A stretch of DNA of 64,000 nt, taken from Macrolepiota albuminosa. Its lineage: Eukaryota; Basidiomycota; Agaricomycetes; Agaricales; Agaricaceae. Made by a program: the position numbers and the translations under genes. The notes under the pieces are model-generated. The model saw only the letters and a program-made list of their open reading frames with translations, was not told the origin of the DNA and did no database searches. This document shows, one piece after another, positions 18,902-63,840 of the stretch (within the stretch, counting starts at the first letter, position 1; each line of letters begins with the position of its first letter). The stretch is taken from contig JAMWFC010000054.1 in the NCBI GenBank assembly GCA_027475525.1, forward strand, positions 248,001 to 312,000. Reading direction: 5' to 3'.

Positions 18902-19310
18902 TGTTAGGATATCACAAATATCACATCTGTGACACCGTAGGTGCGCTCCTGGCCACTCTTCTTTATTGCATCCTTGCTTTGTCTCGCATCCCATATATCA
19001 CATCTGTGACACCGTAGGTGCGCTCCTGGCCACTCTTCTTTATTGCATCCTTGCTTTGTCTCGCATCCCATTGTTATGATTTACTTATATACATTCCCCA
19101 CACACAGGCCGTACCCTCAGTCGATTATATTCAGACTGAGGGTAAGCCTGATTAAAATACTTAAGATATACGAATAACTAACTGTACCTTAGACTACGGA
19201 CTGATTGGTCTGTCTTATTTAGGTACAGAAATAATAGTCGATTATATTCAGACTGAGGACTATGGACTGATTGATCTGTCTTATTTAGGTGTAAGGAATA
19301 GATTCCAACA
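18902..19310 (+). repeat. 3' LTR of Copia B (with 77-bp duplication)
   Basis: TGTTAGGATATC to GATTCCAACA, 409 bp. Removing one copy of the 77-bp tandem duplication (18918-19071) gives 332 bp, identical in length to the 5' LTR. Confidence 0.94.
18918..19071. repeat. 77-bp tandem duplication in Copia B 3' LTR
   Basis: Copies start at 18918 and 18995. The 5' LTR of the same element has one copy only. Confidence 0.95.
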
Positions 19311-19504
19311 CTCCGACATACAAAATATCCCCTTGGTCCAAGCCTCAGCTAAGACCTCCTCTCCTCCTTCTCCTGTCTGATGACCATGTGTCCCAGCTTG
19401 GAAATGACGCCTTCCTCGCTGCTATGTTGTTGCCTCCACTCCCTCTTCCAACTCTCTGCATCTGAATGTGGAGATTGAGACAACTGAACTCAGCAGACTT
19501 GAAG

Positions 19505-19820
19505 CATCATAGCTCTCTTGGACAGTGGCACTACTGGACTCTTCCTGGACACCAATTATGTGGAACAACACCAGCTCACTATCCAACCCCTTTCTTATCT
19601 TATTCCGGTCTATAACATTGACAATATGCTCAATGAAGCTGGATCCATCTGCTCAGTGGTGGATTTAGTCCTTCATTATCAGACTCATTCTGAGCATGCT
19701 GTCCTTGCAGTCACCAGCCTAGAAAAGCAGGACATGATACTTGGGTTCTCCTGGCTGCGTGATCACAATCCTGAGATTGACTGGGCCAAGGGTAAGGTGA
19801 GCATGAGCCGCTGCCCTTGA
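19505..19820 (+). pseudogene. Gypsy B aspartic protease
   Basis: A retropepsin-like segment with active-site D-S-G (LLDSGTTGLFLDTNYVEQ) and a C-terminal ILGFSWLRDHNPEIDW block. It would mature the polyprotein. The frame is open from about 19510 to a TGA at 19820. It is cut off from gag by Copia B. The motif is intact, but no continuous gag-pro-pol frame exists. Confidence 0.85.
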
Positions 19821-19949
19821 CAGTGTTCCATATGTGCCAAGAAAGTTAGAGAGGAGCATAGAGAGTCAGTCCGTGAGCATGCTGCTATTCTGGCTTGCTG
19901 AGTTGGACACCTCCTCTTTGCAGACCTTGACCTACTAGATCCTCCCCCC

Positions 19950-20739
19950 TTGGCATTTCCTTATAGAGAGGCCCTCTATGAGGACATTCAAGGTGTAGTG
20001 AGTGAAACCCAGATGGAAGATGGATACAAGGGTGAATTTGGGTGTGCTCCTGACCCAGAGTCTCCAGACAAGGCTATTGAGACAGGTGATAGGATTTATG
20101 CAACTACATTACAACCTCCACCAACTATAGCAGAGATTAGAGCTAGCCAAACTACTTCTCAGTGGCTAGCTCAGGCATTTGCTGCCAACTCTGCTTCTAA
20201 GTTGTTCTGAGATGCAGTTCCTCATCATCTGCAAGACTTTGAGGATGTTTTCTCTAAGGCATCATTTGACTCCCTGCCAGAGTGTAAGCAGTGGGACCAT
20301 GCAATCAAGCTTACACCCAATGCTGAGCCCTCTAGCTGCAAGGTCTATCCTCTCTCTCCCAGAGAACAAGATGAGCTTGATGCCTTTTTGCAGGAGATTT
20401 TAGACCTTGGTCACATCCATCCCTCAAAGTCTCTGATGGCCTCTCCAGTCTTCTTCATTGAGAAGAAGAATGGATCTCTATGTCTGGTTCAGGACTACCA
20501 AGTCTTGAATGTGATGACTGTGAAGAATTGCTACCCCTTACCACTCATTTCAGAGCTTGTCAGTCAACAACCTCCAAGATGTGTGCTACTTCACCAAGTT
20601 GGATGTCCGCTGGGGCTACAACAATGTGCACATCAAAGAAGGTGACAAGTGGAAGGCAGCATTCTGAACAAACCATGGACTCTTTGAACCTCTGGTAATG
20701 TTCTTTGGCCTCACTGATAGCCCTGCCACCTTCCAGACC
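19950..20739 (+). pseudogene. Gypsy B reverse transcriptase, N-terminal half only
   Basis: Frames cover the pre-RT linker (TIAEIRASQTTSQWLAQAF), then HHLQDFEDVFSKASFDSLPE and SPVFFIEKKNGSLCLVQDYQ, then after frameshifts YFTKLDVRWGYNNVHIKEGD and FFGLTDSPATFQT. These are RT motifs before the YxDD site. At 20740 the 3' LTR begins, so the catalytic YxDD, RNase H and integrase are absent. A very similar fragment on the reverse strand is at 62062-62400. Confidence 0.88.
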
Positions 20740-21258
20740 TGTCAGGGGACTCCTCATTTCTTCCTTTTCTCACTCCTTATTTCTTCACTCTCCCTTCATT
20801 CATTCTCTTATTTCTTCTGACATTATTTCATTTTACTGTTTCTATTCTTTTAACACTATCTGTTAGTACTACTCTCAGCCCTTGAAATGCTCTGGTTCTT
20901 TAGCTACCATTCAGACAAGTGTGGGCCCTTCAGCACTGCTTTCAGACTGCTTATATAAGCCAGAGTTTGCCTTTCTGACTTCTAAAGTCCGGAGTTTTCC
21001 TGCCTTGTTTGCACAGTTGTTTGGTTAGTCAATTTTCGAGTTTTTAAGGTTTTGTTGTACTGTACAGTTGTTTCCCATGCTTCAGAGGCCCCAGAAGCAT
21101 CCAACTTGGCATAGGGAATCCCTAGACTTGTTCTCTTTGGATCTCCCTCTGCTAGGTGAGTAGCTATCATGATATTGTCAGTATATATTCTAATACACTT
21201 TGGATCTCCCTCTGCCAGCTGTGTGACTGAGCCACAGCCTCTAGAGGTTGCTCTTGCA
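20740..21258 (+). repeat. 3' LTR of Gypsy B
   Basis: 519 bp, TGTCAGGGGACTCC to GGTTGCTCTTGCA, with TATATAA at 20952-20958. It is followed by the GTTGT target duplicate and Copia C. Confidence 0.92.
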
Positions 21259-21372
21259 GTTGTGCCAAAGTTTGAAGGGGGTTTTTCTATTAAGTGACTT
21301 TGTTAATCTTTGCATGTAAGTGGGTTGCTGTTAGGTAAAATTTGTTCCAAAGTGAGTCTAGGCACTTAGCAG
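21259..21372 (-). pseudogene. Copia C integrase C-terminal piece
   Basis: Reverse-strand reading gives SLWNKFYLTATHLHAKINKV then KTPFKLWHNH, which continues directly into the KPDYS-like coding at 11784 once Gypsy B is removed. It matches the Copia B integrase end (DEFYLTATYLHGKTKN). It is separated from the preceding part at 22274 by repeat R. Confidence 0.85.
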
Positions 21373-22268
21373 TATAGTATTTGGTTGCAAGTAGTACTGA
21401 TAGTTCTGAGGCTTGCTAGTGTAGCATATAACCTTCAAATCACACTGACTTTGATGACAAAATGGATTATTATTGTTGTGAATGCTTTCAATCATTTTGC
21501 AGAAAGCAGAGCTTTTGAGCTCTTATAATGTTGAATGCTTTCAATAATTTTGCAGAAAGCAGAGGCTTTGAGGTATTATAATGTTGAATGAGAATAATAA
21601 TATTCCAGAAAATGGAGGTTTCTCAACAAACTCCAGCCTAAGCAATTTACTCCCTGGGAATCACTGAGCCTTTGCCTATCAATTGCCTGTCTATTTTCTA
21701 CTAAACTTGGGCTATTTATACTGTTTTTCTAGTGCATAGACCACTATCTACACCTGACTCTTTGTTGTAAACTCCCTAGCCTCCGGAACATATTTGATAG
21801 TCCAATTTCCCTTTTGAGAAGCCTGTTTTAATGCCACCAGTTCCACCATTAAACTTCTTGTTCCACCATTCCTCCAGATGTTTCTGATTGCCACTTCCCC
21901 ATTTGCTTCTGCTCTATTTAGTACAATCCTTCTCTGCATTCCATGCTTCTTTTCAGTCATGTCAAATCGGGCATTGTCAGATCTGATCTTGATTTAGATC
22001 ATTACAATTTGATCCCATTTTGTCACTTCTGCCAGCTCCCATGCTTTCCCTCCCCATTACAGTGGTTGGACTATTGTTGAGCTGATAGTTTGAGCTGGTT
22101 TTTGCCTGTTGTTCTGTACTTTTTTTCTGTGTATTTATTGGGATGTTTTGGAGATATATTTTTGTTGAGACTGCTACCAAGAGGCTTATAGTTTTCAGCC
22201 CATAATTAAATGTTTATTTTGACTTCTGGTGCATGGTGTGTCCCTGACTGCTGGTACAGTGTTGTATC
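21373..22268 (+). mobile_element. Repeat R, complete copy (LTR-like)
   Basis: An 896-bp insertion flanked by AGCAG (21368-21372 and 22269-22273). Removing it and one AGCAG restores the Copia C integrase frame (MRIAA joined to KCLDSLWNKF), which fixes the borders. Partial copies occur at 7999-8569 and 36525-36820. Consensus ends look like TGTAATAC...TACCA, so a solo LTR of an unknown element is likely, though this copy has TATAGTAT...GTATC. It contains an internal repeat of about 53 bp (near 21481 and 21534) and no recognised coding region; the open frame at 21748-21960 (reverse) is not conserved. Confidence 0.85.
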
Positions 22269-22934
22269 AGCAGCTATTCTCATTGTTCTAGCTTTGCCTT
22301 GGAGTGTTTGGTGCATGCATTCCACCCATTCCATGTGTTGCAATGTATAGGGGGCACCGTATTCATGCCTTGTGCCAGTTGTTGTGAGCCATGCCTTGAG
22401 CTGGTGATTTTTGAGTTCCTCATCCATGACTGGTGTGGTATATGCTGACCTTCCTTTCTGTCTTGAGTTCTCTTTCCTTTTCCCATGCTCAAAGCACATT
22501 GAAAGCATCTGCCTTTGACTTTAGTGAGATTGACCATGGCATAGTTGGATAATCATCAACAAGATCCATAATATATTTGTTTCCGGTATAGGATTGCACA
22601 TGCATAGGGCCTGCCAAGTCTATCCAAACTATCTGTAGCTTCTCAACTGCCCTCCATCCTTCCTTCTGTACTTTAGAAACCAATATTTGTGTCTGTTTGC
22701 TGAGGATACAGATGTCACATTTTGGTTGTGCAGGAAAAGAGTCAGATAGCATACCTGGCAGAAGACCATTTCAGGCCATAGTTGCGACAACCTGGTAGTT
22801 CACATGTCCAAGATGCCAGTGCCAGGTGTCAATTTTTACTGGGTGCTGCGCCATAGTCAAGGCATGCTCTGATAGGGCATATTGTAATTTGAGTGTGTAG
22901 AGGGACTTTCCTGGGATCAGTGGCCCCCCAGCTA
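22269..22934 (-). pseudogene. Copia C GAG-pre-integrase and integrase core
   Basis: In coding order: GPLIPGKSLYTLKLQYALSE, IDTWHWHLGHVNYQVVATMA (GAG-pre-integrase), KCDICILSKQTQILVSKVQK (zinc-binding region), VWIDLAGPMHVQSYTGNKYI and MDLVDDYPTMPWSISLKSKA (integrase core), then HEYGAPYTLQHMEWVECMHQ and ARTMRIAA. The integrase inserts element DNA. A TGA near 22756 and frameshifts inactivate it. The upstream gag and protease are missing because mariner copy 2 begins at 22935 and the sequence beyond that is repeat R, not Copia. Confidence 0.85.
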
Positions 22935-23308
22935 CAGTGGCTCAAAAAACTGTCTCAATGTTTCATACTTTTTGAAAGAAGACATTGGCATGAAGGATAG
23001 GAAGTACCTAAAATCCTGATTAAATCATGTAAAATACTATGGCATTGTAGCTACAAAATAAATTTAGGCATATGTAATTGATATCAAAACTGATGGAGCA
23101 ATGGCCATTTTAAAGTATTCACTCATTGGGACAGTTTTTTGAGCATCTCTAATTTTTCAGGTTTATTCCTGTTTTAGTCAGAAACAAGGAGTACGTTGCA
23201 TGTGGGAATACAGACAGAATCATGTGACCATGTTTAGATATATTTGAGAGTGGTTCAAGCTGGTTAAACCACATCTTGGCCTTCAACCACTATCATGAAA
23301 GTTACTCC

Positions 23309-23313
23309 CCCTG
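23309..23313. other. Target duplication of Gypsy A, left copy
   Basis: CCCTG directly before the left LTR; the same five bases follow the right LTR at 35058-35062. Copy 1 of mariner has uninterrupted sequence at the matching place, confirming the insertion point within the first codons of the transposase. Confidence 0.93.
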
Positions 23314-23487
23314 TGTAACCGGAGTTACAGGTTAGAACTATCTTGTGTGTATCACACAAGTGCTAAATCAGACCGCAGTATCAGATTTGACTAGTACTTA
23401 GAGTGAAAACAAGATGTTGTCTTATGTAATACTCTACTAAATGATTATAGCGTCGTTGACGCTAAGAACACGGATGACTCCGTTACA
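23314..23487 (-). repeat. 3' LTR of Gypsy A
   Basis: 174 bp, TGTAACCGGAGTTACAGG to GACTCCGTTACA on the plus strand. It is followed in the element interior by the polypurine tract (reverse strand CATTGGGGGGTA), which is shared with Gypsy D. Confidence 0.93.
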
Positions 23488-23845
23488 TACCCCCCAATGA
23501 GACCGACTACTTGGTCTTTAGAAAGGGAGGTAGAGCGAAATGAAAGATGCACGGTAGTGCAAACAACCGATGAATACATGTGTATGGCGTGGCTGCAAGG
23601 CGTTAGCATTCATGCGCACTGGAAATGTGTCGTCTGGACACAATAGGAAGCAGTCCTTATCAGACAAGGGTGCAGGTTGCGCCAGCAGTAGATAGAAAAA
23701 ATGTATAGAGCAAGTAAATAAAAAACAAAAAAGATGACCCCTCCTCTGGGTCCGCTGTATCTACACGCAACTCTAGAGTGCGTATCAGCTGAAATGGTTC
23801 AAGTGAAATACTCGGAGGTACATACACTATAAAGTATACAAGGGT

Positions 23846-26800
23846 CTATGACCCGGATAACGATGCTCCCGCAACAGCGCCTGTCTCAGTCACCATTGCC
23901 TCCTCCTCCAGTGCGACGTTAATCGTGGGAGGGGGAGGTGCCAATTCCATCCTTGGTGGGGTTATAGGCCCCTCAACTGCAGGCGTGTCTACCACCATAG
24001 GCTCTGTTAGTGCGACGTTAATCGCTGAAGCGGTGGTGGTAAGCGTACCCTGCTCTGCCGTGCGTGACAGGAGATTGACCCGGCCTGGGTCCATGTCTGC
24101 TGTTGGCAGGTCATGCGCTGCTGAGCGTTTTAGGAGGTTGACCCAATTCGGGTCCATGCCAATCAAGTAATAGAGGCCGTTGGCCTCAGGGTTTTCCAGG
24201 AGCTTGCTCTCCTCGTGGTGCTTGAACATAAGACGATAGTGATCGTCTTCAGTCATCTCCCGCCATCCATCCCATTGCGGGATTGTGGCAGGGGTGCCAT
24301 ACTTGGAGAGGCGCTCCATGCGCTCATCGTCAACCTGCTTGAAGATGTCCATAGACATCGTGGGGGATGGAACTGCTGTTCCAGGAAGACTACGCCGTAC
24401 GTGTACGTGTGGTCCACCCATTCCAGCGGGATCCGGTTGTGTAGAAGGACGCGTAATGCATCGTCATCGGAGAAGTTCTGTGCATGGTCGTCGGGCACAT
24501 GAACTTGGTGAATTTCGAGCTGCGGCCCACGTTGGGGCTCAAATGGCTGCTCGGGGAACATGGCATCATACAAGGCAATCGCCTCTCGATAAAGCCCTGG
24601 ACGGGCCATGACGAGGGTCATGCGCCGCACGATCACCGGCTTGGCTGCGCTGTTAGCGCACAATGCTCGACATAAGGCGAACCCAAAGAGGGTCCGCCAA
24701 TGCATGCGATAGGCATGATCCACGGCGATACCTTAATAGGTATTTTCCAACCCAGGTTGGCCAAAGACCAGTGTGTACTGCACCAGTTGGTCAAGGTCAA
24801 ACGGTGTGGCTGGATCCTAAGCACGCATTACGCCCAACACCGTGGTGCCATCGTCTTTTGTGCGCAAAAAGCGCCCCGGAATGTGTCGTCGCTCGACAAG
24901 AGCGAGGTCGTCAGGGCCCTGCATCGGGTTGACAAGTTCTTGGTACCTAGGCTCCTTCATCAGGAGCTGCATGGTTCGATGAGGTCGTCAGGGCCCTGCA
25001 TCGGGTTGACAAGTTCTTGGTACCTAGGCTCCTTCATCAGGAGCTGCATGGTTCGATTATGCAGAGCCTCCACTGTTCGCTGCACGAACATCTGGAGCTC
25101 TGTGATCAACATATACACGATGATTCTGTCGCGATGCAGAACGTGTACATTTGCATAATACTTATAGAGCTGGTCCAGCTCTAGCGGAGTGCGGGGAAGA
25201 CCACGTGGGGCGTGCTTATACACAATCGTGCCCGGGATGTGGGCAGGATGGCCAGAGGAATATTCATATGACGCCGCTCTATTGGTGTCAGCTCCCATCA
25301 ACACCGTATTCGTGGCATACGAATAATAGGTGCAATGGCTGAGTGCTCCTCTAAAGCACGAGTTCATTCGCTCAATATCGAGCGGACCCCACACCTTCAC
25401 CCCCAAGCCATCGGGGATCCTCCCCAAACACTCATCCTCAGCCCTAGACTTCTGGGCCTTTAGCTCCTTGGCGTGAATTGCCTTCTTCTTTGCAATGCGC
25501 TTATTGCGTGATACTCGTTGGAATCAGTCTGCGGCCGATTCCCCCTCCTCCCCATCCTCCTCCTGCTCTGAGCTCGACTCTCCATAGTCGCTCTTGTCGG
25601 ACAGGGATGGTACTGGTTTTTTGCCTTTATCAGGCCTAGTCTTCCCCCTTGAGGTCGCCACCAGACCATCATACTGCTCCGGTGTACAGGGGTCTGGGGT
25701 CAAGACGACCACGGGATACTTTTCTGGTGGGGCCGGTACAAACACCGGCAGCATGAACAACATCTGGACTTCTCCCGCTCGTGCGGAAATGCCAGCAGGA
25801 AAGAGTATAACCTCCAATTTGGAGGCATCGAGAGGCGGCTTGTGGCCGCGGCGCTGATGAGACGGCCCCGACTTGGTCAGGGCAGACGATTCTGGTTGTG
25901 GCTGAGCCACCGGAGGGGCAGGCGCATTTCGCACCAGAGTATTCTCTCCAGGCCCAGCACGAGGAGTGACAGTAATGGGCGCTCTTGGCGCCACAGCAAC
26001 GGGTTTGGGCCCCCTAGGTGGGGCCTGAGATGATGCGGCTTCCCGCTGACCCAAGGACAGACCTGCCAAGGATTCACTGACGGCAGCCAGCGACTCTGAA
26101 GAGGCCTGCGGGCCCGACTCGGGTAACCGCGATGACGAAGCCACGGGCTGAGCAGGCTGCTCATGGCGCGTGAATTGCGCTTCCGACGGCATCCTTGCCT
26201 GTGGAGGAGCGACTGGTCGACTGGGCTGATATCTAGCCCTCTTGACCTCAGCGGTCGATTCCTCACTCGTGGCGATTTTGCGCTTAGAAGCGCGTTCGAT
26301 CTGCTCCAGCGCTGCGACGTGCTGCCTCTTCATCAGCTCAATTTGGTCAAGCAGCCCTTCTATCACCATTACGGCCAAGCTGTCCTGCAGAAAGGACGCA
26401 GTTGCAGGGACTGGCTGTCCCGCTGCTTCCAGTCTGCCCAACAGCACGTCTGACCCAGCTATAATCTGCGCTTGTGGCACAGGCTCCCCATATGACTCTT
26501 CCATGGGCCGGTGCGCCTATGGTACTGACGGTGGCCCTGTCACCACACCTGCATACGTCGGATACGACGCAGTTGGACGTGACAACGGTTCCTGGTAGTA
26601 GCGCTCGCGGTGCGTGCTGTCCTCCGGGCACCCATAGCGCCCTTCGTCATCGACCTCCATCTCTTGCGAGTGGAGGGGCATCTGATATGGAAGCGGCTCA
26701 TCACGGCCTGGATAGGCCACCACTGACTAAAACTGGCTTGCCGCCGGATATGGCGGCTGCCTCAGGTACTGGGTTGACATTTGTATATTTGGGGGTCTCC

Positions 26801-26858: not shown

Positions 26859-27087
26859 TTTCGCTAGACACGTAGACTACGTGTATTGGGACTTGAGAAA
26901 AGAAAGAAAAAAAACAATCTCCCAACTCCGCTAGTGGTGTAAACAACCACAAATACACGCCACCCAGCCTCTCACTAGCGATCATAGTCGCATAAACGGT
27001 CACAAACAGTAGCCACAATTAGTAGCCACCCGGTTATTCACCGGCTATCAAAGTGGACTTCGTCCACATTCCACCACCCCACGCGCA

Positions 27088-28775
27088 TTATGCACGTTTT
27101 GCTAGCTGTTGAGGGTGTTTCACGCCCTGCAACTCTAGGTACCTGTCCATCGCTGCAAGGTCTTTGCAGTTCACTAGTGGTTCCCAGGTAGTATCACCTA
27201 AGCTCCACCTCACCTCGAATTTGAGGCTTCCTTTTGTCCACCGGTGACCGATGAGGTCATCTACAAACCACTCCTGGTCATTGCCAGTTCCAAAGTCATA
27301 CGGCTCCGGCGTTGCGCGATTAGGAAATAGCGCATCACTACTGGCCATATACGGTTGCAATAGCGACACGTGGAACTTAGGCACTATCCTGCGCGCTTGC
27401 AGCACCTGGGGTAGTTCCAGCACGTAGTTAGACGTGCTCGGTTCCGCCTCAAGGAGCTTATATGGTCCAATCCATTTCGGACACAGCTTGCTCGCCCTGC
27501 CTTTTGGCAGGTTCAAGTTCTTTGTCGAAAGGTACACTAGGCTCCCTTTCTCAATGTCCGGCTCATCACGTCTGCGATTATTCGCATGTTTGGTTTGCCA
27601 TACACGCAATTCTATAATTGCGTCATGGGCCTCTGCCAGATTCCTTAGCGTGTTGTGCGCAAACTGCTGTACTCCCACATGAATGACTTTGTCTGTACGA
27701 AGTTCACAAATCATGGATGGCATGTGGCCATTGTTGAGTTCAAAGGGTGAATACCTGGTAGTTTCTGATATACTCGCATTTATCGCGAATTCCACAAGGG
27801 GACATCGATCCACCCAGTCCTTCTGATCAGGACGTACGAACGCTCGCAAGATTTGCGCGATATTTCTATTTGCACGTTCAGTTTGACCATCCGTTTGCGG
27901 ATGAACCGACATTGACATGAGCAACTTTGCTCCGAGCAGTTTGTGCAACTCCTTCCACCATTTGGAAGTAAACTTAGCATCTCAATTGCTTACGATTGAA
28001 CTTGGCAGTCCATGGAGGCATACTATCTCCTTGAGATAGATCCATGACAAGTCTGATGCGGTCATGGTGGTTCTTACCGGAATGAGATGGACCATACTGG
28101 TCATTCTGCAGATCACTACCCACTGGTAGTTAAAGCCTTTCGACTCAGGGAACGGACCTATAAAGTCCATCCCAATTGAATCCCAAGGTTTGACCGGTAT
28201 GGGTAGCGAATGGAGCTTTCCCGGTGGCTTCAAAGTCAATACTTTTGACTGTTGACATAGCTCGCATGTCGAGCAGAATTGGCTCGTCTCTTTGGCCATT
28301 TGCGGCCACCAGTACCAGCGTCACACATAATCCAGCGTTTTCTGAGTTCCGAAGTGGCCCACTACTCTATGGGCCTGGTCGGCCACCAGTACCAGCGTCA
28401 CACATAATCCAGCGTTTTCTGAGTTCCGAAGTGGCCCACTACTCTATGGGCCTGGTCCAGGATAGTTGTAATCAACGACCTCTCCCGGGGAATGCAGATG
28501 ACTTTGGACCCCGTGGGTCTGGTAAGGTAGACGAGCTGCTGCTCCATCCTGAAGCGCGGATGCGCTTGGATATTGTTCAGAATCTCTACGAAGAGATTAT
28601 CATCCTTGTATCCTTGCTGGATACGTGTGCGGAATTGCGCATTGCCTAAGTCGGCCGGTGCAGGCGTATGGTCCTGTGACTCCAGCGCTTGCTGGAGCGT
28701 CATATCAGTACCTCTCGTAGGCACCTCTTGCCTTGTCTCTTCACTTGGCTGAGGTACCTCATGATCCACTAGCAC
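27088..28775 (-). pseudogene. Gypsy A integrase with C-terminal chromodomain
   Basis: In coding order: zinc-binding HHCC region (RVVGHFGTQKTLDYV, stop, RWYWW, then CSTCELCQQSKV), the DDE core with first Asp in GMDFIGPFPESKGFNYQWVV, second near SSIVSN(stop)DAKFTSKWW and Glu in QTDGQTERANRNIAQILRAF, a GPY-like module (CPKWIGPYKLLEAEPSTSNY) and a chromodomain (FEVRWSLGDTTWEPLVNCKD). The integrase inserts cDNA; the chromodomain normally directs insertion to marked chromatin. TGA stops lie at 28398-28400 and 27982-27984, and the 77-bp duplication at 28304-28457 shifts the frame. The last 286 codons (27088-27948) are open. Confidence 0.92.
28304..28457. repeat. 77-bp tandem duplication in Gypsy A integrase
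   Basis: Copies start at 28304 and 28381. Collapse restores the frame across the integrase zinc region. Confidence 0.95.
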
Positions 28776-28841
28776 CTGGGCTTCGATATTGCGAGTCTCT
28801 TGCTGTTTGTGCAGTCGCTTACTGCGACGTGTTTCCTGCGC

Positions 28842-31111
28842 TCACATGGCGTGTAACTCGACCCTATGTTCCCTGATTTCATGGAATCGATGCAGAGGCA
28901 AATCCTCACCCTCTGGGTCAATACGTTTGTCCGCCTGGACATAGTCATGCGTGTCATGGACGTCATCTCGAGTATCACTCTCGAAATATCGAGATAGGCA
29001 ATCCGCCACTTTGTTCAATTCACCTTTTACATAGGTGATGTCGAACTGGTACCGCGACATGTAGTCAATCCAGCGACGTTGTCGCGGAGACAGGTGCACC
29101 TGAGTCTTGAAGAACTCTAGTGCTTTGTGATCCGTGATAATATGGATCTTATATCCCATCAGTTTATCCTCCCACTTTAGGAGGGCTTCCAGGATTGCAA
29201 GTGTTTCTAACTCGTGCACAGCATAATTCTGCTGAGCAGCAGTGAATTTACGGGACATAAATCCCGCTGGTCAGCAAGTCTGCCATGTTTTACCCTGGCC
29301 AAACATGGCCCCAACCCCAGTCTTCGACGCATCGCAAATGAGCCAGATGGGCTCATTGATGCGTGGGTCAATTGGCCAAACATGGCCCCAACCCCAGTCT
29401 TCGACGCATCGCAAATGAGCCAGATGGGCTCATTGATGCGTGGGTCAATTGGCCGGATGACTGGCGTTTTTGCGCATATGCACTTAATCATCTCAAAACA
29501 CCGCTGATGCAGTGGTCTCCAATGAAACGGTGACCCATTCTGGGTCATGGCCATAAGTGGCCCGGTGTATGCAGTGATGTCTGGCAAGAAATTGCCAATA
29601 TAGTTCACCAGTCCGACAAATCGTTGGATATCATTATATGTGCGTGGAGTACGCCACTCTCGGATTTGGTCGAGCTTATCCGTATCCGGATGAATGCCCT
29701 TCTCGTCAATGACGTGACCGAGACAATCTATACTCGTTGCGTACAACTCGCACTTCTTCCATTTGAGATAGAGACTGGCCTTCCGTAGCCGTTCAAATAC
29801 GACTCGTAGGTGCTGCTCATGCTCCTCAATGGAGTCAGAAAATATGAATATATCGTCTAAATAGACGTGCATAAACTTCCCGATTACATCTCGGAAGATT
29901 GAGGTCATTAACCTCTGAAATGTTGCCGGTGCATTACAATCACCAATCTGCATGATGTTACTCACAAACGTCCCCATCAGGGACAAGAACAGTGTCTTTG
30001 GTATATCCTCTTCGCGGATGCGAACCTGTTCGTACGTGTCTGTGAGGTCGATTTTCGACCGATACTTCGCTGTCGCGACATCTTCTTGTATCACTTCCTG
30101 ATCTGGAAGAGGTGTTACATCCTTGACGGTATTATCATTGCGCTGTTGCGCATCCAATGCCGTCCGTAATGTTCCATCCTTCTTGGGGATACAAAGCAAT
30201 GGTGCAGCTTGCACCGCTGGTCATGGTTCCCACCACTTCGTGTTTATGTATCTATTCGTCTTTTCACGAAGTTGATCCTGAAGTGCTCGCAGGCAGCGAG
30301 GCAAATGATACTTGTACTGCTTGTTATCGTCAATGAGGTTGATCTCATGATTAACCTCCCGCCACGGAGGAAGCTCTTCCTTCTTTCCATTGACGATATC
30401 AGCGAACTCCAGTTGCCATTGCTGGTGCAATCAAGGAATATCCTCCTCTGTAAGGCTTACAGCCTTGCCTTTTCCTTTGGCTACGCGTGCTATACGCGGT
30501 TGAACCTTTGGTTCAAATCGCTCCCGTAAGGCACGTACGTGCTTCTCTGTGAGATTTCCCAGATTCAACCTTACAACCGGTTGTTTCCTCGTCGTACTCA
30601 CCGACAACTGCACACTTCTCGCTTTCAGCAAAAATCTGTCAAATACGATATCCGATGTTTCAGAAATCTCGTCCTCTTGTGCGTGACGGTACACTTCTCC
30701 CGTCTGGGTCGCTTGCCCACTTCCCATAGCCTGCATCACCATTGACGCTACCAACTCATTCCACTCCCGTGGCATTCGTGGGTCATACGCCCATTGCACT
30801 CCTGGCCGAGGCACTGGTCAATCCATTAGCGACCTAGTGCTACCCACAGTTCCCATCGTACTGTATACCTCGTCCTTGACGAGATCCTCAACCTTCACTC
30901 GAGAGCTAGTCGGCTGGCATTCCAGCGACTCCACCACGTGTTTACTACGCTCATTCTTGCACTGCACAGCCTGTTTAGGCTTTCCATTGGTACACCCAGT
31001 CACATCTGGGTGCTTCCCCTTCTTCAGAGTTCCTTGAAACTCTTCCTCAATCATCAGTATAGCCGGCAAATCAGCCAGCAGGCTTTTCGGTGGGGCCTGT
31101 TCGTCCTCCAC
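28842..31111 (-). pseudogene. Gypsy A reverse transcriptase and RNase H
   Basis: Reading frames share one phase: linker (MEDEQAPPKSLLADLPAILM), GVQWAYDPRMPREWNELVAS, LHQQWQLEFADIVNGK-like, RT fingers AAPLLCIPKKDGTLRTALDA, palm with catalytic YLDD in FMHVYLDDIFIFSDSIEEHE, thumb RFVGLVNYIGNFLPD, then RNase H (PIWLICDASKTGVGAMFGQ; NYAVHELETLAILEALLKWE; IITDHKALEFFKTQV). TGA stops are at 30818-30820, 30431-30433, 30221-30223 and 28842-28844. The 77-bp duplication at 29296-29449 splits RNase H; subtracting it rejoins GAMFGQ to the KTWQTCRPAGF-type continuation. Catalytic residues are intact, so decay is by stops. Confidence 0.93.
29296..29449. repeat. 77-bp tandem duplication in Gypsy A RNase H
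   Basis: Copies start at 29296 and 29373. Collapse rejoins the two halves of RNase H. Confidence 0.95.
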
Positions 31112-31140
31112 CTCCTGTACAGTCGCTCTCCTGCAACCAT

Positions 31141-34109: not shown

Positions 34110-34558
34110 TTGTCCTCCCTACTGACCACTATTGCTGGTCCTTGCTTCTGTCCTTGTGTTGTCAACGACGATGGTCCCGGTTCAGTGGCAGCATTGGCCA
34201 CGTACTCCAAATGCCGTTCTATCGGTGCAGTCCGGAATGGGGTGCTATGCGCAAACGCGCTGCCTTGTACCATCTCCGAGTACTGGGTAACGTCCGGTTG
34301 ACCCTCAGAGGGAGCTGAAGAGCTCTCGGGCAATACCGGATACATTAGTGAAGGCATTTGGCTCGCTGGCAGCGACACCCCTGAGACCGCAGATCTCTCT
34401 CCTGGTTTTCCACCAGGTCGCACAATGGACATCATCCGTGATACGGATAGCCCACCTGGCATTCCAAAGCTCGCACTGACATCGCGAGGGGTCTTTTTGT
34501 CCCACTTTGGCGGAGGTTGGTATGCTGATGCAGATTGCGTCTTCACAGCTTGAAGCAC
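34110..34558 (-). pseudogene. Gypsy A gag N-terminal extension, out of frame
   Basis: A reverse-strand frame (34022-34558) reading KWDKKTPRDVSASFGMPGGL and PVLPESSSAPSEGQPDVTQY. Its Pro/Gly/Ser composition resembles the first 190 residues of the Gypsy F gag. It is out of frame with the 988-codon ORF, and a small indel near 34030-34110 would explain that. The upper end touches a 77-bp duplication (34521-34674). Confidence 0.5.
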
Positions 34559-34674
34559 AGGTAAGTCACCTGCGTCTGCAGCTGGGAACGGAGGATCTAT
34601 GCTGACGCAGATTGCGTCTTCACAGCTTGAAGCACAGGTAAGTCACCTGCGTCTGCAGCTGGGAACGGAGGATC
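34521..34674. repeat. 77-bp tandem duplication near Gypsy A gag start
   Basis: Copies start at 34521 and 34598, with one C/T difference at a CpG. Confidence 0.95.
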
Positions 34675-34806: not shown

Positions 34807-35057
34807 TGTAACCGGAGTTACGGGTTAGAACTATCTTGTGTGTATCACACAAGTGCTAAATCAGACCGCAGTATCGGATTTGACTAGTACTTAGAGTGAA
34901 AACAAGATGTTGTCTTACGTAATACTCTACTAAATGATTATAGCGTCGTATCGGATTTGACTAGTACTTAGAGTGAAAACAAGATGTTGTCTTACGTAAT
35001 ACTCTACTAAATGATTATAGCGTCGTTGATGCTAAGAACACGGATGACTCCGTTACA
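34807..35057 (-). repeat. 5' LTR of Gypsy A (with 77-bp duplication)
   Basis: 251 bp, TGTAACCGGAGTTACGGG to GACTCCGTTACA on the plus strand. Minus the tandem copy (34871-35024) it is 174 bp, the same as the other LTR. It is followed by the target copy CCCTG. Confidence 0.93.
34871..35024. repeat. 77-bp tandem duplication in Gypsy A 5' LTR
   Basis: Copies start at 34871 and 34948. The opposite LTR (23314-23487) has one copy. Confidence 0.95.
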
Positions 35058-35062: not shown

Positions 35063-36141
35063 CACAACACTCTGTTATTGCTTCTCTTCTTGCTGAAGGG
35101 TATTCTCTGCACTAGATTGAGACTAAAACTGGTCTAGAGAAGTCTACTATTGGGAGAATTAGTAGAAAGTTGGAAATGGACAAGAAAAACCATTCTAGAG
35201 GCCATCCTGCTAAGCTTACTCTATATGATAAACAGACTATTGTTCACCAAATTTCAACTGGGAGTCTTGATACAGCTGTCCAGGCCATCAATTTTATCAA
35301 CAACATCATTTCCAACCCTGTCTCTCTTCAGACTGTTCAGAATGTGTTGAAGGAGGAGGGGTATTGGTCTGCTACCAAGAGAAAAGTTCCTATGCTCAAA
35401 AGCTAGACATCGACAACTATGGCTTAAATGGGCTCAGGAGCATTGGAACTGGACTATAGAGGACTGGAAAAGGGTGTTGTGGACAAATGAGACAAAGATT
35501 AACAGAATTGTGTCAGATGGGAAGCAGTATATGTAGAAGCTACAAGGAGAAGGAATTTCAGACCAAACAACTACACCTACTGTGAAGCATGGAGGAGGGA
35601 ATAATCTCATGGTATGGGGCTGTATGGACTAGAATGGGGTAGGAAAGCTTGTAGAGGTGGTGGGGATCATGAATGCAGAGCAGTACTGTGAAATTTTGGA
35701 TGATAGAGCAAAGGAGAGCTTTGAGAAGTTGGAGATGGAGGAAGGTACCCACTACTTTCAACAGGACAATGACCCCAAACACAACTCCAAGAGGGCTGAC
35801 AAGTAGTTTGAGGACAACAACTTTGATGTCCTTTAGTGGCCAGCCCAATCTCCTGATCTCAACCCTATTGAACATCTCTGGGAGTACCTCAAGGAGCAAC
35901 TTAGGCAGTATAAAACACCTCCTCATGGTGTGCATGAATTATGGGAGAGGGTCTCTGGGAGTACCTCAAGGAGCAACTTAGGCAGTATAAAACACCTCCT
36001 CATGGTGTGCATGAATTATGGGAGAGGGATGCAAAGGAGTGGGATGGAATACCACCAGAGGTATGCCAAAGACTAATAGAAAGCATGCCTAGAAGGATTC
36101 AAGCAGTTATCAAGGCAAATGGAGGACATACAAAGTACTAG
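35063..36141 (+). pseudogene. Tc1-like transposase of mariner copy 2, C-terminal 95%
   Basis: Continues the first codons at about 23294-23313 (MKVTPP-AQHS). It includes LEMDKKNHSRGHPAKLTLYD, VLKEEGYWSATKRKVPMLKS, QQDN-type and SPDLNPIEHLWEYLK motifs in shifted frames, and ends DAKEWDGIPPEVCQRLIESM to the stop at 36141. It is broken by the Gypsy A insertion at about codon 6, multiple stops and frameshifts, and 77-bp duplications at 35875-36028 and 36106-36259. Confidence 0.85.
35875..36028. repeat. 77-bp tandem duplication in mariner copy 2 transposase
   Basis: Copies start at 35875 and 35952. Mariner copy 1 has a single copy. Confidence 0.95.
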
Positions 36142-36259
36142 ATACTAACATTAGAGATGCTCAAAAAACTGTCCCAATGAGTGTTATCAAGGCAAATGGA
36201 GGACATACAAAGTACTAGATACTAACATTAGAGATGCTCAAAAAACTGTCCCAATGAGT
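36106..36259. repeat. 77-bp tandem duplication at the transposase end of mariner copy 2
   Basis: Copies start at 36106 and 36183. Collapse gives a 216-bp TIR as in copy 1. Confidence 0.95.
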
Positions 36260-36445
36260 GAATATTTTAAAATGGCTATTGCTCCATCAGTTTTGATTTT
36301 GATTACATAAGTCTAAATTCATTTTGTAGCTACGATGCCATAGTATTCTACATGATTTAATCAGAATTTTATGTACTTCCCATCCTTCATGCCAATGTCA
36401 TCTTTCAAAAAGTATGAAACATTGGGACAGTTTTTTGAGCCACTG
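36230..36445. repeat. Right 216-bp TIR of mariner copy 2
   Basis: Same length and end motifs as the TIRs of copy 1. Part of it is duplicated at 36451-36527 by a 77-bp repeat. Confidence 0.85.
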
Positions 36446-36527
36446 TAGATTACTTCCCATCCTTCATGCCAATGTCATCTTTCAAAAAGTATGAAACATT
36501 GGGACAGTTTTTTGAGCCACTGTAGAT
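36374..36527. repeat. 77-bp tandem duplication at the right end of mariner copy 2
   Basis: Copies start at 36374 and 36451. The duplicated block ends three bases past the TA flank, at a repeat boundary. Confidence 0.95.
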
Positions 36528-47329: not shown

Positions 47330-47560
47330 CTGAGATCTATCAGTTGACATTGTTCCACACTGACATAGTCTATTGCTTATATAAGCATCTGCACACTAAC
47401 ATAGGCTGCTGCTTACACAAGCATCCAGATAGATGAACAATCTAGTGAATTACATGACAGCAAAAATCAAAGATATTTTTTCCACACTGACACAGGCTGC
47501 TGCTTACATAAGCATCCAGATAGACAAACAGTCTAATGAATCACATAACAGCAAAAATTG
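47330..47560. repeat. Imperfect direct repeats
   Basis: The unit CACACTGACACAGGCTGCTG followed by CTTACATAAGCATCCAGATAGA occurs about three times with drift. The last two are spaced about 100 bp apart. The region 47000-48290 otherwise holds no gene I can see. Confidence 0.55.
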
Positions 47561-48300
47561 AAGATATTAATTTGGAGCTGACAATGTGGAGAATGGTAAG
47601 TAAGTAAGTGGAATGAAATTAGTAGACTTCTTAAGATAGGCCTGATGAAAGTATAGAAGAGTTTGCAGAAAGAAATCTTTGTATTTCTTGAGCCCTGAGA
47701 AATTCCTCAAGCATCAGAGACCTGCTCCTGAGGGAGGGGGGCCAAAAACTCAAGCTAACTACATGAGGGACTGAATAGGTATGAGTAAGAATGTAAGAAG
47801 TGTAGAATGAAGAAGCTATGTGAATAGGGATGGTGGAAGGGGATCTCAAATTGACACATGATATAAGAGATTAATCCAATGGACAGCTGTGAGCACAGTG
47901 TGAGACAATGATGTCAATCTCTGCTGATGCCTGCAGGTATAAATGAGAATTTAGAACAAAGCAAGCAATGGCAAAGGGTGGCCAGAATGTAGAATGTGAT
48001 GATGTGAAGGGTAAGGCATATTGATCTTGGCCCAAATTAACCCCAGGCAACACCCCTCACTTTGCCCAATCTATTTTTCCCACACACCTCAGCATCAGAA
48101 CAAACATCAACAACAAGAACCAAAATCACATGATGGCAAGAGTTAAAGACATTTTTCCCACACAGTCCACTGCACAGAAAAACCTTGATCTATTCTGGAT
48201 CTTGGAATATTTCCAGTAATATTGTACCTGTGTCGTATACTTGCACAAAAATCACATATATGCATATATCAAATTGAGTTTTATGGTTAGAATGCAGAGA

Positions 48301-50293
48301 TTATGATGTCTCTTCATTCACAATGTGAAATGTCGCCCCATATGGGGCGAGCCTGACTGTTTGGTAATGTTCCAAGTACTCAACAAGAGTGACATTGCCT
48401 TTGCTGCATAAAACCTCAAGCAATGTCTTCCCTTTAGCATCATGGATTGTTCTATCCCATCCGCAGTCAAGCAAAAGCTTCAACTTTTCCAGGCCTGCAT
48501 CGTGTTCATAATCTGTCAATGCACGGTAGAGTGCATCATGACTACATGATTGGGCACCATGATCCAAAAGGTATGTCACCATTGTATGGGAGTCCTGCAA
48601 GTAGTTTTGAATGGCAAAGTCAAGTGCTGTAAATGAGAAGTATCGCTCCTGCCCAGAGATCAGAGCTGGCTCTCGTTCAATAAGGAAAGCCACCGCGTCC
48701 AGATTGCCTGCGAATGCTGCATGATGCAAAACGGTCCAACCATCATAATCACGACAATTGAGGTCAATTCCTCGATGCAACAATTCATGAAAGTCTCCTG
48801 CATCCCCGGCAATTGCACATATATGCAAAAACTCCGCGCTCCATTGACTGCCAGATTGAAATAGGTTGGGACCACCCAAATCCAGAAGCCACCGAGATAG
48901 GACCCGATGCCTGCCTCTGAGTGCTGCTTGATAAGCTCCAGACAGTACATTCCTTATCTGTTCTTGCCAGTCCTTGAAATCAGCTGTAGGTTCGTCTAGC
49001 AGAGTCTTAGGATCGAAGAACTTCATAAAAGTTTCAATCATTCGGCCATATTTGTTGTTTTTTCCAATCTCGTCCCCCATGGAAGATGCTGAATACGTAT
49101 CAGGCAATCTTGATAGACAATATTTGATTGCAGAGAGAAGATACCTCTTTCCTGAGCTTGGGTTAAGATCTACACTGCCAGGACAGCCTGGATACCATTC
49201 ATTAAGCAAGCCACAAGTCCCCTCAATGACAATTTCTTTCACAGAGGGGTTACATGAGTGGTTGAAAGCCCACTCCAAGGAGTTGTGATGGAGAAGATAA
49301 ATAGATGATGGGCTGAACGCTGCATCATGCTCTGCTAGTTTTAAAGACCGCCTTGCCACCCATCGTGGTTGCCACAAGTGCCATGGTCTCAAGGAGCGAT
49401 TAAGCATACGCCAGAGATTCCGGCACGTGTATCCTGTAGTATATACAGCATACAATAGAGGTTTCGTTAAATAGAACACGAAGGGGATGCGGTAAGGACA
49501 AGCAATGTCCAAGGCAGGAACCATGGAGGATCCAAAGTAGAAGAGAAACGTAAGAGCAGTGATCACAGAAACGATTCCAGATATTGGACGGGACAATTGT
49601 GAAACATAGAGAGCTAGTCCAACCAGAAAGATCGCAACTGAGCAATGTAGGATCAATGGGAGACTCTGAATAATGTCGCCGAGCTTATATTTTACAAGAC
49701 CGCCAAAGCGGAATTGGCGGATTAAAGCACGGGTTCTGGCGCTCCCAGGAACGATTACAGTATATGCCTGTTCATCTGTATTAGATGGCTACAAGACCAA
49801 GATAAAGGGAGTGTACAAACTTGGATCCATTGTTTGGCTAGAACAGACAGGAGGGCAGTTGATAACGAGAGAGCGAGGCTCGTAAAAAAGAGTCCATTCA
49901 CCCATACATCTATGGCAGTGTGCGTCTGGCTTGCGGGACCCAGAGATGCTGCAGAAACAGCATCTATTCTCGTTCTATTTCCGGCGGCTCTCAATAATTG
50001 GTTGTTTTCAACAAGTAGGGATACCGTGATCTGTGCGTTATCTGGTTGAAGCGCTTGGGATGTTTGAGCGACAAACGTCGTTACAACTGCCGAGAAGAGT
50101 GCAGCCTGCGTTGGAATTAGGAAGAGATCTAGGAATGTATGTCATCAATACCCACAAAAACAAGAAGACTATCAATAATGCTCCGATAGCCTTCAATCAT
50201 GTCCGCATCGTGACTCTCAGCTTCATCAAGATATACATACCACACTCGCGCATTTTCTTCTGCTTCTTCTCCAGGTTTGTCAGGGCCGTACAT
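48301..50293 (-). CDS. DUF6535-type membrane protein with ankyrin repeats (three exons)
   Basis: Exons 50293-50156, 50105-49821 and 49767-48301; introns 50155-50106 (GTGGGT...CGCAG, 50 bp) and 49820-49768 (GTTTGT...AACAG, 53 bp), both phase 0; product 629 residues. Exon 1 has ENARVWYVYLDEAESHDADM. Exon 2 has AVVTTFVAQTSQALQPDNAQ and a membrane helix WVNGLFFTSLALSLSTALLS followed by VLAKQWIQ, the DUF6535 hallmarks. Exon 3 adds two further membrane helices (about 175-225) and, at about 480-608, ankyrin repeats (DYDGWTVLHHAAFAGNLDAV; FTALDFAIQ; KGKTLLEVLCSKGNVTLVEY). DUF6535 proteins are widespread in Agaricomycetes and their function is unknown; the ankyrin part suggests protein binding on the cytoplasmic side. 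The start is the first in-frame ATG of exon 1, but an upstream exon is possible. No stops or frame breaks, unlike everything around it. Confidence 0.85.
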
Positions 50294-52511: not shown

Positions 52512-52665
52512 ATTTTTGTATAAGTGAGTGAGTGTTCACTAAAGTCATACTTCACAATGTCAACTGAACATCTTGGTTGTTTTAGCAGATTTTTGTATAA
52601 GTGAGTGAGTGTTCACTAAAGTCATACTTCACAATGTCAACTGAACATCTTGGTTGTTTTAGCAG
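52512..52665. repeat. 77-bp tandem duplication in AT-rich intergenic DNA
   Basis: Copies start at 52512 and 52589. Confidence 0.95.
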
Positions 52666-53248
52666 ATTGATATATAAGGCTTTATTGCATAGTTGTTCGA
52701 GTAATAAAACGGTTTTCCCATGGTCGCAGTCGCAGAAAATTTTTGTTTTAAGCCGCATAGATCCATAGATTGAATAGGCTGATGAAGTTGTACTTAAATT
52801 GTACTAATTGCCAGAATTTTACCTATCAAAGCATTCTAGCTCACAACAAATAGTAATAAGTACCAAGTTGAACCACAGTTGATTAATAGTATTTGCCTCC
52901 AGTAGGTGTCTGTTGAGTGAGTACATGACAATATAGACTGATGGTATCAGTTTGTTATAGCAGAAAAAGAAGCGATAAGGATATAGAATTTCCAGAGTTG
53001 TGCAGCAACATGTCCTATGAGCAAGCTAGCAGTAAGATAGTTTGAAATCAAAAATTTTAAGAAAAGACAGGAAGAAAAGAAAGAGACGTATGTATTACAT
53101 ATAATGATGATCATTATATACAATAATAATAATAAAATCATTATATAATTGTTTGTGTGAACAAATACTTATGTAATTGTTTGTGGGGACAAATACTTAC
53201 ATAATGGTTTGAGAATGAGAACGGTCAAGAGGACAACCATATATCATG

Positions 53249-54074: not shown

Positions 54075-54299
54075 ATCATCCAGTCCTTCATCACATGAAT
54101 CAAAATACTTGATCATTTCTTGGTAAAGCATACATATACATAGTGTGTTTTTGTACGCGACTGTAAATATAATCCAGTCATTCAAGATGTACAAATCAAT
54201 GCTATCATATCAAGATTTGGGAATGCCATAGCACTCTTTCGCATCGGAGTCCATATTATGGAAAGAGCAACTTCTGTCATGATTAGTGAAACAAAGTCA

Positions 54300-55760: not shown

Positions 55761-55767
55761 ACCCCAA

Positions 55768-56551: not shown

Positions 56552-56599
56552 AGCACTCGCCTCAGGGAGCAGCGTGAAGAGCGGGACGTAGCCGCCCAG

Positions 56600-58216: not shown

Positions 58217-58319
58217 TTTGATCAGCAGTGCCAATCGCGGCTTGGCTGAGTTGGTCAGCAGCTGTGGCTGAAACATGTCTTAAAAGGCAAAATTTCTTTT
58301 TTCCTTCCTTCCCTTAACC

Positions 58320-61300: not shown

Positions 61301-61550
61301 GTCCGACACTGGGGATCTTCCCGATCCCCAACCACCTATCCTGGGGTCGATCATTGACCCCACTCTCACACTGTCCCCCCTCCAGAACTACGACGACTCC
61401 CTGCCTGTTGCAGGGCCATCAGGCACTTCCTATGAGCCTGCACCCGAGGATGAACTCCTCAACTACGACATGGACAATGTGACTGCCGATCTATTCCGGG
61501 AGCCTGGGGACTCTCCAATTGCCCCCATCCCTGACTTACCGATGGCCTGA
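58320..61550 (+). pseudogene. Third ORF of Gypsy D (unknown, prion-like N-terminus)
   Basis: Starts at ATG 58320 (MDNMPVDCSEQQQQFEFAPP). After a frame change at a run of eight G (58398-58405), it continues as a Gln/Gly/Tyr/Pro-rich domain (GFPQQQQQPAAGYSPQQPVI, GGYQPQQPVAGAYVPHHAAG), a helical block (FLRDAEAVVLISQMMDNMDY) matching the Gypsy A coiled segment, basic and acidic linkers, then conserved blocks FYWLPVTNTIFVRQEAHTAR, MDRAMRIHWRSLFGFALVCS, ARPGLYKEAVAEYKAATGQV, WADHAYTYEVTYLAHIFF and QWDGWCKATIGN. About 1,075 codons over several frames. It is located 104 bp after the chromodomain stop, as in Gypsy A (230 bp). No signal peptide or membrane helix. Function unknown. Confidence 0.78.
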
Positions 61551-61584
61551 CCATTGTATTATTTTGAGACCATAGCTCGGTCTA

Positions 61585-61595
61585 ATTGGGGGGTG
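61585..61595 (+). other. Polypurine tract of Gypsy D
   Basis: AATTGGGGGGTG directly before TGTAGC. The ATTGGGGGGT core is identical in Gypsy A (reverse strand, 23489-23498). Confidence 0.7.
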
Positions 61596-62058
61596 TGTAG
61601 CATAGTCTGCTATGTGGTGTTGGCCACATAGCTTTACTTACTGTGTCGGAAAAATCCCAGATGCCTTATCAGGACAAAAACCAAATTAGGTCAAATAAGG
61701 TCAGATCAGAGTGTGGAGCTACCTTGATTGGGCCTGATTACACAAAAAACTAATTTGATCAGACCTGATATGGTCTAATAAGGGCGTCTGATCTTGTAAC
61801 ACTTGTCTGATCAGAACTAATTATTGGGTCTGTCTAAAGTAACGTGATCACGGCTGATTTCATCTGATGCGGCTCTCAGGATTTTTCTGACACGTAGTCG
61901 ATATTATATTATACTTATTATAATATAATATTAATATTAATTACTTTACTATATCTAGTTACATGTGCTGCTTACTAAGCAGCTTATTTTTCTTGTGTAC
62001 ACTACATTGTCAATAGACCAGTCTGGTCTGATTCAGTGTTGTGTGCACACTAAGCTCT
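61596..62058 (+). repeat. 3' LTR of Gypsy D
   Basis: Starts TGTAGCATAGTCTGC. The end lies at or just after CACACTAAGCTCT, because that string also ends the LTR piece at 3371-3400. About 460 bp, AT-rich, with many GATCAGA/TCTGATC motifs. It is inserted into or joined to the Gypsy B RT fragment. Confidence 0.8.
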
Positions 62059-62061
62059 GTC

Positions 62062-62400
62062 AAACCCGTAACTTCATTACAATCTAGTTTGTCCTGCTCC
62101 TTAGGTGCAAGCAGCAGATAAACCTTGCAGTTGGCAAGCTTTGAGTCTGATAGGAGCTTGATTGCATGGTCCCACTGCTTGCATTCTGGGAGGGAATCAA
62201 ACAATGCCTTGGAGAAAACATCCTCAAAGTTGTGGAGATAGTTGGGGACCACATCACAGAGAGTCCAGACAGGGGAGTTGGCTGTAAAGGCCTAGGCTAG
62301 CCATTGAAATGTGGTCTGACTAGCCTGGATCTTCTCTGTGGTCTCTGAAGCTCACAGAGTAGTGGCATAGATGCAGTCATGGAAATCATGTGAAGTATAA
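62062..62400 (-). pseudogene. Gypsy B family RT N-terminal fragment
   Basis: Reverse-strand reading: KIQASQTTFQWLA then NYLHNFEDVFSKALFDSLPE and CKQWDHAIKLLSDSKLANCK, matching 20110-20380 of Gypsy B. It stops at the Gypsy D LTR. Decayed; no LTR of its own is adjacent. Confidence 0.85.
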
Positions 62401-62489
62401 GGCACACATTGTTGCCCAACAGTTCTTGCAGATTCCTGGTATCAATTATAATGATATTATTTTCTCAGTCACAAAATTCACTATTCTGT

Positions 62490-63840
62490 GAGTATTTTTG
62501 ATGTTAGCTGTGACCCTTGATTTAGAAATCCATCAAATTGACATAATTGGTGTCTATTTGAAGAGAAGTCTCAATGAAGACATCTACATGCATGCACCAA
62601 CTGAAGTAGGGAGAGCCAGATACTGGAAGCAATCTATGGACTAAAGCAAGCCAGGCATAAGTGGAAGGAGAGATTACATGACATACTTATGTGCTTAGAT
62701 TTCAAATCTTCACATGCTAATGATTGCCTATACATCCTACATTTGAAGGGCAAAATTGTTTTTATTGTACTCATCTACATTTACAACATGGCTATAGCCA
62801 GCAAAGACTTGTGCAAAATCAACTCCTTCAAGCAAGTCATGAACAAGGACTTTGATATCATCAACTTAGGCAAAATCCATTACTTCAGATTAAAAGAGAT
62901 CAGCTAAACCAACTCATCTACTTGAACCAATTGATTTATATCAATCCATTCTTGACCAATTCAGTATGAGCTCTTGCCACACTGTTGCTATGCCCTTGCT
63001 TATCAACTATAACTTGTCAAATCCATTCTTGACCAATTCAGTATGAGCTCTTGCCACACTGTTGCTATGCCCTTGCTTATCAACTATAACTTGTCACTCT
63101 TGCAATTCCTGCACTTTGATAAAGAACACAATGATTACAAAACTTATGCAAACAAACTAAAGTATCTATCCTTAGTTGGCTCTTTGCTTTATGCTACACA
63201 GACTTGACCCAACATCCAGTTCTTAGTCAGCCTCCTGGTGCAGCTTTCTGATAATCCAGATATCCTACATCTTGATAGCTGTAAACATGTATTGCATTAC
63301 TTGAAAGGGACTAAGTCCTATTGTTTAAAGTTAGGCAGATTAGAAAATGACAAAATTACACTCATTGGATAGAGTGATGCTAATTGGGCCCAAGACTACT
63401 ATAATAGACAATCTATTAGTGAGTGATACTATGATATCAATGGTAGTTTGACCTCATAGTCCTTGAGGAAACAACTAGTGACAGTGACATCCACCATTGA
63501 AGCTGAATACATTGCATCTGCAAATGCTACATGTGAAGCCATTTGGCTTAGAAACTTATTAAAGGATCTGGACTTTGAACAAATTGAGGCCATCATCATC
63601 CATACCAACAACACCAGTGGTATCACTTTATTTAAAAATCCAGTAAGACATTTATGAGCCAAGCATATTGATATAAATTTTCACTTTATTCACAAAGACA
63701 TCAAAAGAAGCAATATAAAACTCCAATTATTTCTACTCATGATATGATTGCTGACGTGCTTACAAAAGCCTTATCTAAAGACACCTTTGAAAAGCATTGT
63801 GCAAGGTTAGATGTTGTATTGCCTATGCTGCCATTCAGTG
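62490..63840 (+). pseudogene. Copia D reverse transcriptase and RNase H, decayed
   Basis: Recognisable in order: LDLEIHQIDIIGVYLKRSLN and EDIYMHAP (RT), the catalytic block FIVLIYIYNMAIASKDLCKI, where V-D-D is replaced (I-Y-N), NKDFDIINLGKIHYFRLKEI, YANKLKYLSLVGSLLYATQT, HVLHYLKGTKSYCLKLGRLE, then RNase H TVTSTIEAEYIASANATCEA, IWLRNLLKDLDFE, HTNNTSGITLFKNP and KHIDINFHFIHKD. Many stops plus a 77-bp duplication (62943-63096). It is a distinct Copia lineage from A, B and C. It is followed by its 3' LTR. Confidence 0.85.
62943..63096. repeat. 77-bp tandem duplication in Copia D
   Basis: Copies start at 62943 and 63020. The duplicate shifts the RT frame. Confidence 0.95.

Follow-up and report, generated by a model that had tools for sequence, protein, structure and literature searches.

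Are eleven tandem duplications of exactly the same length, found in unrelated parts of one stretch of fungal DNA, a property of the genome or of its assembly? The stretch is 64,000 nucleotides from Macrolepiota albuminosa (assembly GCA_027475525.1, contig JAMWFC010000054.1, positions 248,001 to 312,000), in the following called the window; it is part of a contig of 2.8 Mb (C89) in an assembly of 100.1 Mb and 129 contigs. At eleven places, several of them in the elements Copia B and Gypsy A, a segment of 77 bp is followed directly by a second copy of itself. We are close to certain that these pairs are contig overlaps of 77 bases which were left untrimmed after a de Bruijn assembly, and that they are not features of the organism.

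The eleven pairs

A sequence-only reading of the window had listed eleven tandem duplications with a period of 77 bp, and all of them are present where it placed them. Direct comparison of the adjacent 77-mers shows that ten of the eleven are exact and that the remaining one, at 34521, has 76 matches out of 77 with the mismatch at 34529. The features below are given with the maximal run of bases that equal the base 77 positions further on (s[i]=s[i+77]).

18918..19071, 77-bp tandem duplication in the 3' long terminal repeat (LTR) of Copia B, junction 18994/18995, exact, run 77
24904..25057, 77-bp tandem duplication in Gypsy A, exact, run 77
28303..28457, 77-bp tandem duplication in Gypsy A pol (site 28304, run from 28303), run 78
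29296..29454, 77-bp tandem duplication in Gypsy A pol, run 82
34521..34674, 77-bp tandem duplication in Gypsy A, one mismatch, run 8 + mismatch + 68 (span 8+1+68 = 77)
34871..35026, 77-bp tandem duplication in a Gypsy A LTR, run 79
35875..36028, 77-bp tandem duplication in a high-copy repeat, exact, run 77
36106..36260, 77-bp tandem duplication in the same high-copy repeat as 35875, run 78
36374..36527, 77-bp tandem duplication at the end of the high-copy repeat of 35875 and 36106, exact, run 77
52512..52668, 77-bp tandem duplication in a dispersed repeat other than the one at 36 kb, run 80
62943..63096, 77-bp tandem duplication, exact, run 77

No exact full-period tandem was found in the window at any other period from 20 to 399, the longest run elsewhere being 37. 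Tandem Repeats Finder gave 26 rows for the window, which are the eleven pairs together with imperfect arrays of other periods, and an Rfam scan of the window at gathering thresholds gave no match. The eleven units are unlike each other in sequence, with a G+C content from 0.34 to 0.56; the earlier reading places the pairs in unrelated elements and in intergenic DNA. The amount of artefact estimated there for the window, 847 bp, is 11 x 77.

Among the ordinary imperfect arrays are one at 47392-47568 with period 91 (87% matches) and one at 21479-21611 with period 53 (82-91% matches). Both differ from the exact pairs of period 77 and are probably real.

Terminal repeats and reading frames

Each of the two elements has a duplication in one LTR only. 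The coordinates are from self-comparison of the sequence.

13786..14118, 5' LTR of Copia B, 333 bp, with the 77-mer once (exact 77-mer at 13803)
18901..19310, 3' LTR of Copia B, 410 bp, with the duplicated 77-mer
23314..23487, Gypsy A LTR without the duplication, 174 bp
34807..35057, Gypsy A LTR with the duplication, 251 bp

The LTRs of one element thus differ by 77 bp in both Copia B and Gypsy A; the lengths proposed before, 332 and 409 bp for Copia B and 174 and 251 bp for Gypsy A, gave the same difference. Because 77 is 2 modulo 3 each false insert also shifts the reading frame, and the open frames of Gypsy A pol on the minus strand have end coordinates of phase 1 modulo 3, then 2 below 29296 and 0 below 28304, the stepping that had been predicted from the two sites. 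Gypsy A pol (27091-29270, minus strand) further contains in-frame stops at 27982-27984 and 28842-28844, each flanked by open segments of the same phase. These stops are independent of the 77-mers, so that not all defects of Gypsy A are artefacts.

Period 77 in the rest of the assembly

The sample consisted of 17 stretches of 10 kb from 17 contigs, one of which is the window's own; contig number and a fixed coordinate decided the choice, and of 20 requested 17 were long enough. Window and stretches together make 234 kb. When runs were merged across one or two mismatches and a span of at least 70 was required, 39 near-perfect tandems with a period between 30 and 399 were found in this sample of the assembly, and all 39 have period 77. 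By a second criterion, a scan of periods 30 to 2000 with at most one mismatch, nothing but period 77 was found in the 234 kb; it gives 40 places instead of 39 because one pair in L012 (3425/3427) is counted twice. The absence of an excess at 77 had been named beforehand as the result that would speak against an artefact, and the outcome is strongly in favour of one.

The 17 stretches contain 28 pairs, or 1.65 per 10 kb (bootstrap 0.76-2.82), and the window 1.72; this is about one pair per 6 kb. The spread is wide, with six of the 17 stretches having no pair at all and one (L002) having nine in its 10 kb. Extrapolated from 0.17% of the genome, the whole assembly would contain about 16,500 such sites (7,700-28,300) and approximately 1.27 Mb of extra sequence.

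For two contigs that have exactly one node of 77 bases in common and are joined at their ends, the period has to be 77 and the run of identity exceeds 77 only by chance. This is what the 50 exact runs show: the excess over 77 is 0, 1, 2, 3 and 5 bases in 30, 12, 6, 1 and 1 runs, respectively. The mean excess is 0.64, where the base composition predicts 0.67, and 30 of 50 runs are without excess against 56% expected.

We also considered the distance between duplications. Allele bubbles in the graph would in theory give no gap below 155 and an excess at 155. Among 27 gaps the smallest is 217, so none is below 155 and none is at 155, which neither helps nor harms the explanation.

The branch-node test

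A de Bruijn contig ends where a node has more than one continuation. If a pair marks such an end, the same 77-mer should be found elsewhere, or in the other allele, with a different flanking base. All 77-mers of the examined sequence were indexed on both strands, eight loci overlapping the window were left out (L019, L022, L024, L025, L041, L042, L045 and L046), and any register was allowed for runs longer than 77. A further exact copy was present for 13 of the 50 exact runs, and the flanking base differs for 12 of these 13. Among control 77-mers that recur elsewhere a neighbour differs in 1,269 of 15,408 (8.2%). Since other copies which themselves lie in period-77 pairs could mimic a difference, the test was repeated with only the copies outside any pair (37 of 40); the result is again 12 of 13, with 1,073 of 14,400 controls (7.5%). 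At the control rate such a result would have a probability of about 1e-12; for the runs whose register is unambiguous, where 9 of 10 differ, it is 1.6e-9. These values are indicative because copies of one family are not fully independent. When the 77-mer is shifted by 1-40 bases from the junction, 48 of 453 differ. The copies of the 35875 and 36374 units came from searches with those very 77-mers, and without both sites the result is 10 of 11. The concatenation of contigs sharing a 77-mer, as proposed from the window alone, is thus supported both by the single period and by the branch nodes.

Several individual sites in the window show this directly. The base before the 18918 unit is A in the 3' LTR of Copia B and G at its single copy in the 5' LTR (13803). 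For the 24904 unit there is one single copy at C102:457668-457744; a probe of 79 letters, the unit with both flanking bases, has no match, so the C102 copy differs on at least one side. The 28304 unit has one single copy, at C26:553035, and the 34871 unit is single at each of 3 other places. The 35875 unit is single at 3 other places and is followed by A in the window and by T in all three, and the 36374 unit, single at 5 other places, is followed by C in the window; the next base was read at three of these five places and is A, T and G there. The 36106 unit has a single copy in the window itself at 6589 (minus strand), which shares both neighbours, and a single copy in L026 where the next base is A against G here.

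Repeat families which carry the pairs

Three of the pairs lie in one family, and its second copy in the window carries none.

6400..6820, minus strand, second copy in the window of the 35875-36527 repeat, without period-77 pair

This repeat (36006-36448 and 6400-6820) is a dispersed high-copy repeat; a first look gave 640 candidates, and the 40 places scored all have at least 98% identity over 175-177 bp. It contains an exact inverted repeat of 21 bp, gctcaaaaaactgtcccaatg and its complement, and has the end ...CACTGTA.

Among the matches listed, the 36106 unit is present once at 13 places, where the match consists of two pieces that overlap by about 77 bases in the target; examples are C10, C12, C112, C54 and both places in C81. 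Two relatives, L020 and L021, have period-77 pairs of their own at registers other than that of 36106. The best relative of the 52512 repeat, in C73 (L023), likewise has its own pair, at L023:1586 with a run of 78 and a register four bases away, and other relatives of the 52512 repeat match as two overlapping pieces and thus have the unit once. Pairs at several registers in one family are explained by independent contig breaks at different variant positions.

Origin of the duplications

The explanation builds on the fixed period, the chance-level extension, the occurrence in many contigs, the single copies elsewhere and the divergence directly beside the 77-mer. The mechanism would be the following. 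In a de Bruijn assembly of short reads with k=77, contigs would end at branch nodes and neighbouring contigs would share the node as a common end of 77 bp. A later step would lay these contigs end to end, without gap letters and without trimming the shared node, and the node would then appear twice. The genuine locus would accordingly have one copy at every site. Branching 77-mers which are not duplicated are common (the 1,269 among the controls), from which it follows that the assembler itself trimmed or resolved many overlaps; a fault in a later joining step is therefore more likely than one in the graph assembler. Each duplicate would then mark where a finished contig ended, and the density of about one in 6 kb suggests that the joined pieces were short. 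The program or step that did the joining and the single copy at every genuine locus are the inferred parts of the explanation; SPAdes with a largest k of 77 presumably fits, its default list ending in 77.

Several observations weigh against this explanation or fall outside it. Pairs with one mismatched base and a span of 77-79 are found at 34521 in the window and at L002:2453, L002:2891, L012:9417 and L016:3020, and pairs with a span of only 74-76 at L008:7754, L012:3427 and L013:9331. Such pairs need later polishing or an error; the one-base differences between copies are perhaps traces of such polishing. For the 34871 unit, read in the first of three possible registers, all 3 other copies share both flanking bases and no branch is seen. 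The 62943 unit has only its own two copies in the whole assembly by exact search, so that any branch there would have to come from an allele or from a copy missing in the assembly. Of the testable runs L028:2247 is the sole one without flanking divergence, and 37 of the 50 exact runs have no second exact copy in the examined sequence and stay outside the branch test. Finally, L020 has, besides its other pair, a pair at the same register as 36374 and not at a different one.

An artefact of a somewhat different kind would result if a gap-filling or polishing step, anchored on 77-mers as in local reassembly, had re-inserted its anchor. The product would look identical to that of edge-to-edge joining. 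There are no N letters in the window or in loci L001-L018, so any gaps were closed, and the mismatches between copies suggest that the sequence was edited after assembly. Such a step is possible but on the whole unlikely in our judgement, as it is not needed: simple end-to-end joining already accounts for a period of exactly 77, for an extension at chance level and for the branching of the nodes.

We consider it very improbable that a cellular process, for instance repair or the insertion of an element, made real tandem duplications that are always 77 bp long. That the repeats are perfect in many contexts, and that 36374 lies at the end of a repeat, could be taken to point that way. The contexts are unrelated, though, the length is always 77 and no other period occurs in the sample. 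Moreover, the duplications have their borders where other genomic copies differ (12 of 13 against 7.5-8.2%), and a local process could not know of these differences. Biological tandem duplication should give units of variable length and borders independent of what other copies look like, and neither is seen; we know of no cellular process whose tandem copies are always 77 bp long. The constant length, taken alone, would also suit a satellite of 77 bp or a single mobile unit of that size. This is the least probable of the explanations, since the eleven units differ in sequence and in G+C content and, for the six units with further exact copies in the genome-wide searches or the examined sequence, those copies are single.

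Other observations

Two of the sampled stretches, L002 and L012, have a G+C content of 0.63 and 0.61 against 0.39-0.48 in the other 15, and carry a Gypsy-type element. That they could be bacterial contigs was rejected, because the open frames of both, together with the Pfam matches of one frame in L012, identify a GC-rich Gypsy element. The L012 frame contains the domains of reverse transcriptase and RNase H, and a protease match falls just below its cutoff.

One protein encoded in the window was compared with named proteins.

48301-49788, minus strand, ankyrin-repeat protein with a DUF6535 end

The named proteins that match it best, from 7,999 candidates scored, are many Termitomyces paralogues with about 51% identity, followed by proteins of Tephrocybe and Arthromyces. 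By these matches the source of the DNA is probably a mushroom-forming fungus in or close to the Termitomyces group. The Termitomyces paralogues suggest an expanded family in that group.

Relation to known assembly errors and consequences

The fault is of a known kind. Homotype false duplications near contig boundaries are described in the account of the Vertebrate Genomes Project (PMC8081667). The likeness lies in false repeats beside contig boundaries; there the length is approximately that of a sequence read, while in the present fungal assembly it equals the node length, exactly 77, and no gap separates the copies. Another account traces homotype false duplications to read errors (PMC9516828). 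It also describes false gene gains from duplication errors, which is the same class of consequence, namely false duplications that mislead annotation; the cases treated there are under-collapsed sequence or alleles that were retained as paralogues, and a gap often lies between the copies.

For metagenome scaffolds PMC7111523 describes that scaffolding despite overlap leaves duplicate sequence which has to be eliminated. With n as the largest k, the overlap of the ends is according to the same paper often n for IDBA-UD and n-1 for metaSPAdes. As in the present case, adjoining pieces share an overlap that is retained twice; in those scaffolds Ns stand between the copies, and here the join is direct. 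Given that end overlaps are n or n-1 depending on the assembler, the largest k may have been 78 with another program. Contigs from the SPAdes process have overlapping ends which Unicycler removes, according to PMC5481147. Such ends are removed there and left in here, where the program may have been SPAdes with k=77. No published account of a directly joined tandem artefact of 77 bp, or of k length, was found in the open-licence literature. The present case differs from the known ones in the absent gap letters and in a period of exactly the node length.

The finding is of relevance to users of the assembly rather than to biology. If the sample is representative about 1.3 Mb of the assembly is false sequence, and the inserts make the LTRs of one element unequal and so upset the dating of transposons and the calling of their structure. 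Frameshifts, differences in LTR length and short tandem duplications in this assembly should be checked for period 77 before they are read as biology. The branch-node test is strong evidence for such a fault that can be had from the finished sequence. There is an even chance, as we see it, that the duplications can be used more generally as a fossil record of the short-read graph: in any finished assembly a single dominant exact tandem period whose units are branching k-mers would then reveal, without the reads, the hidden k, many of the contig breaks and the amount of false sequence. Published long contigs may hide such faults, which would seed annotations with false frameshifts and false differences in LTR length.

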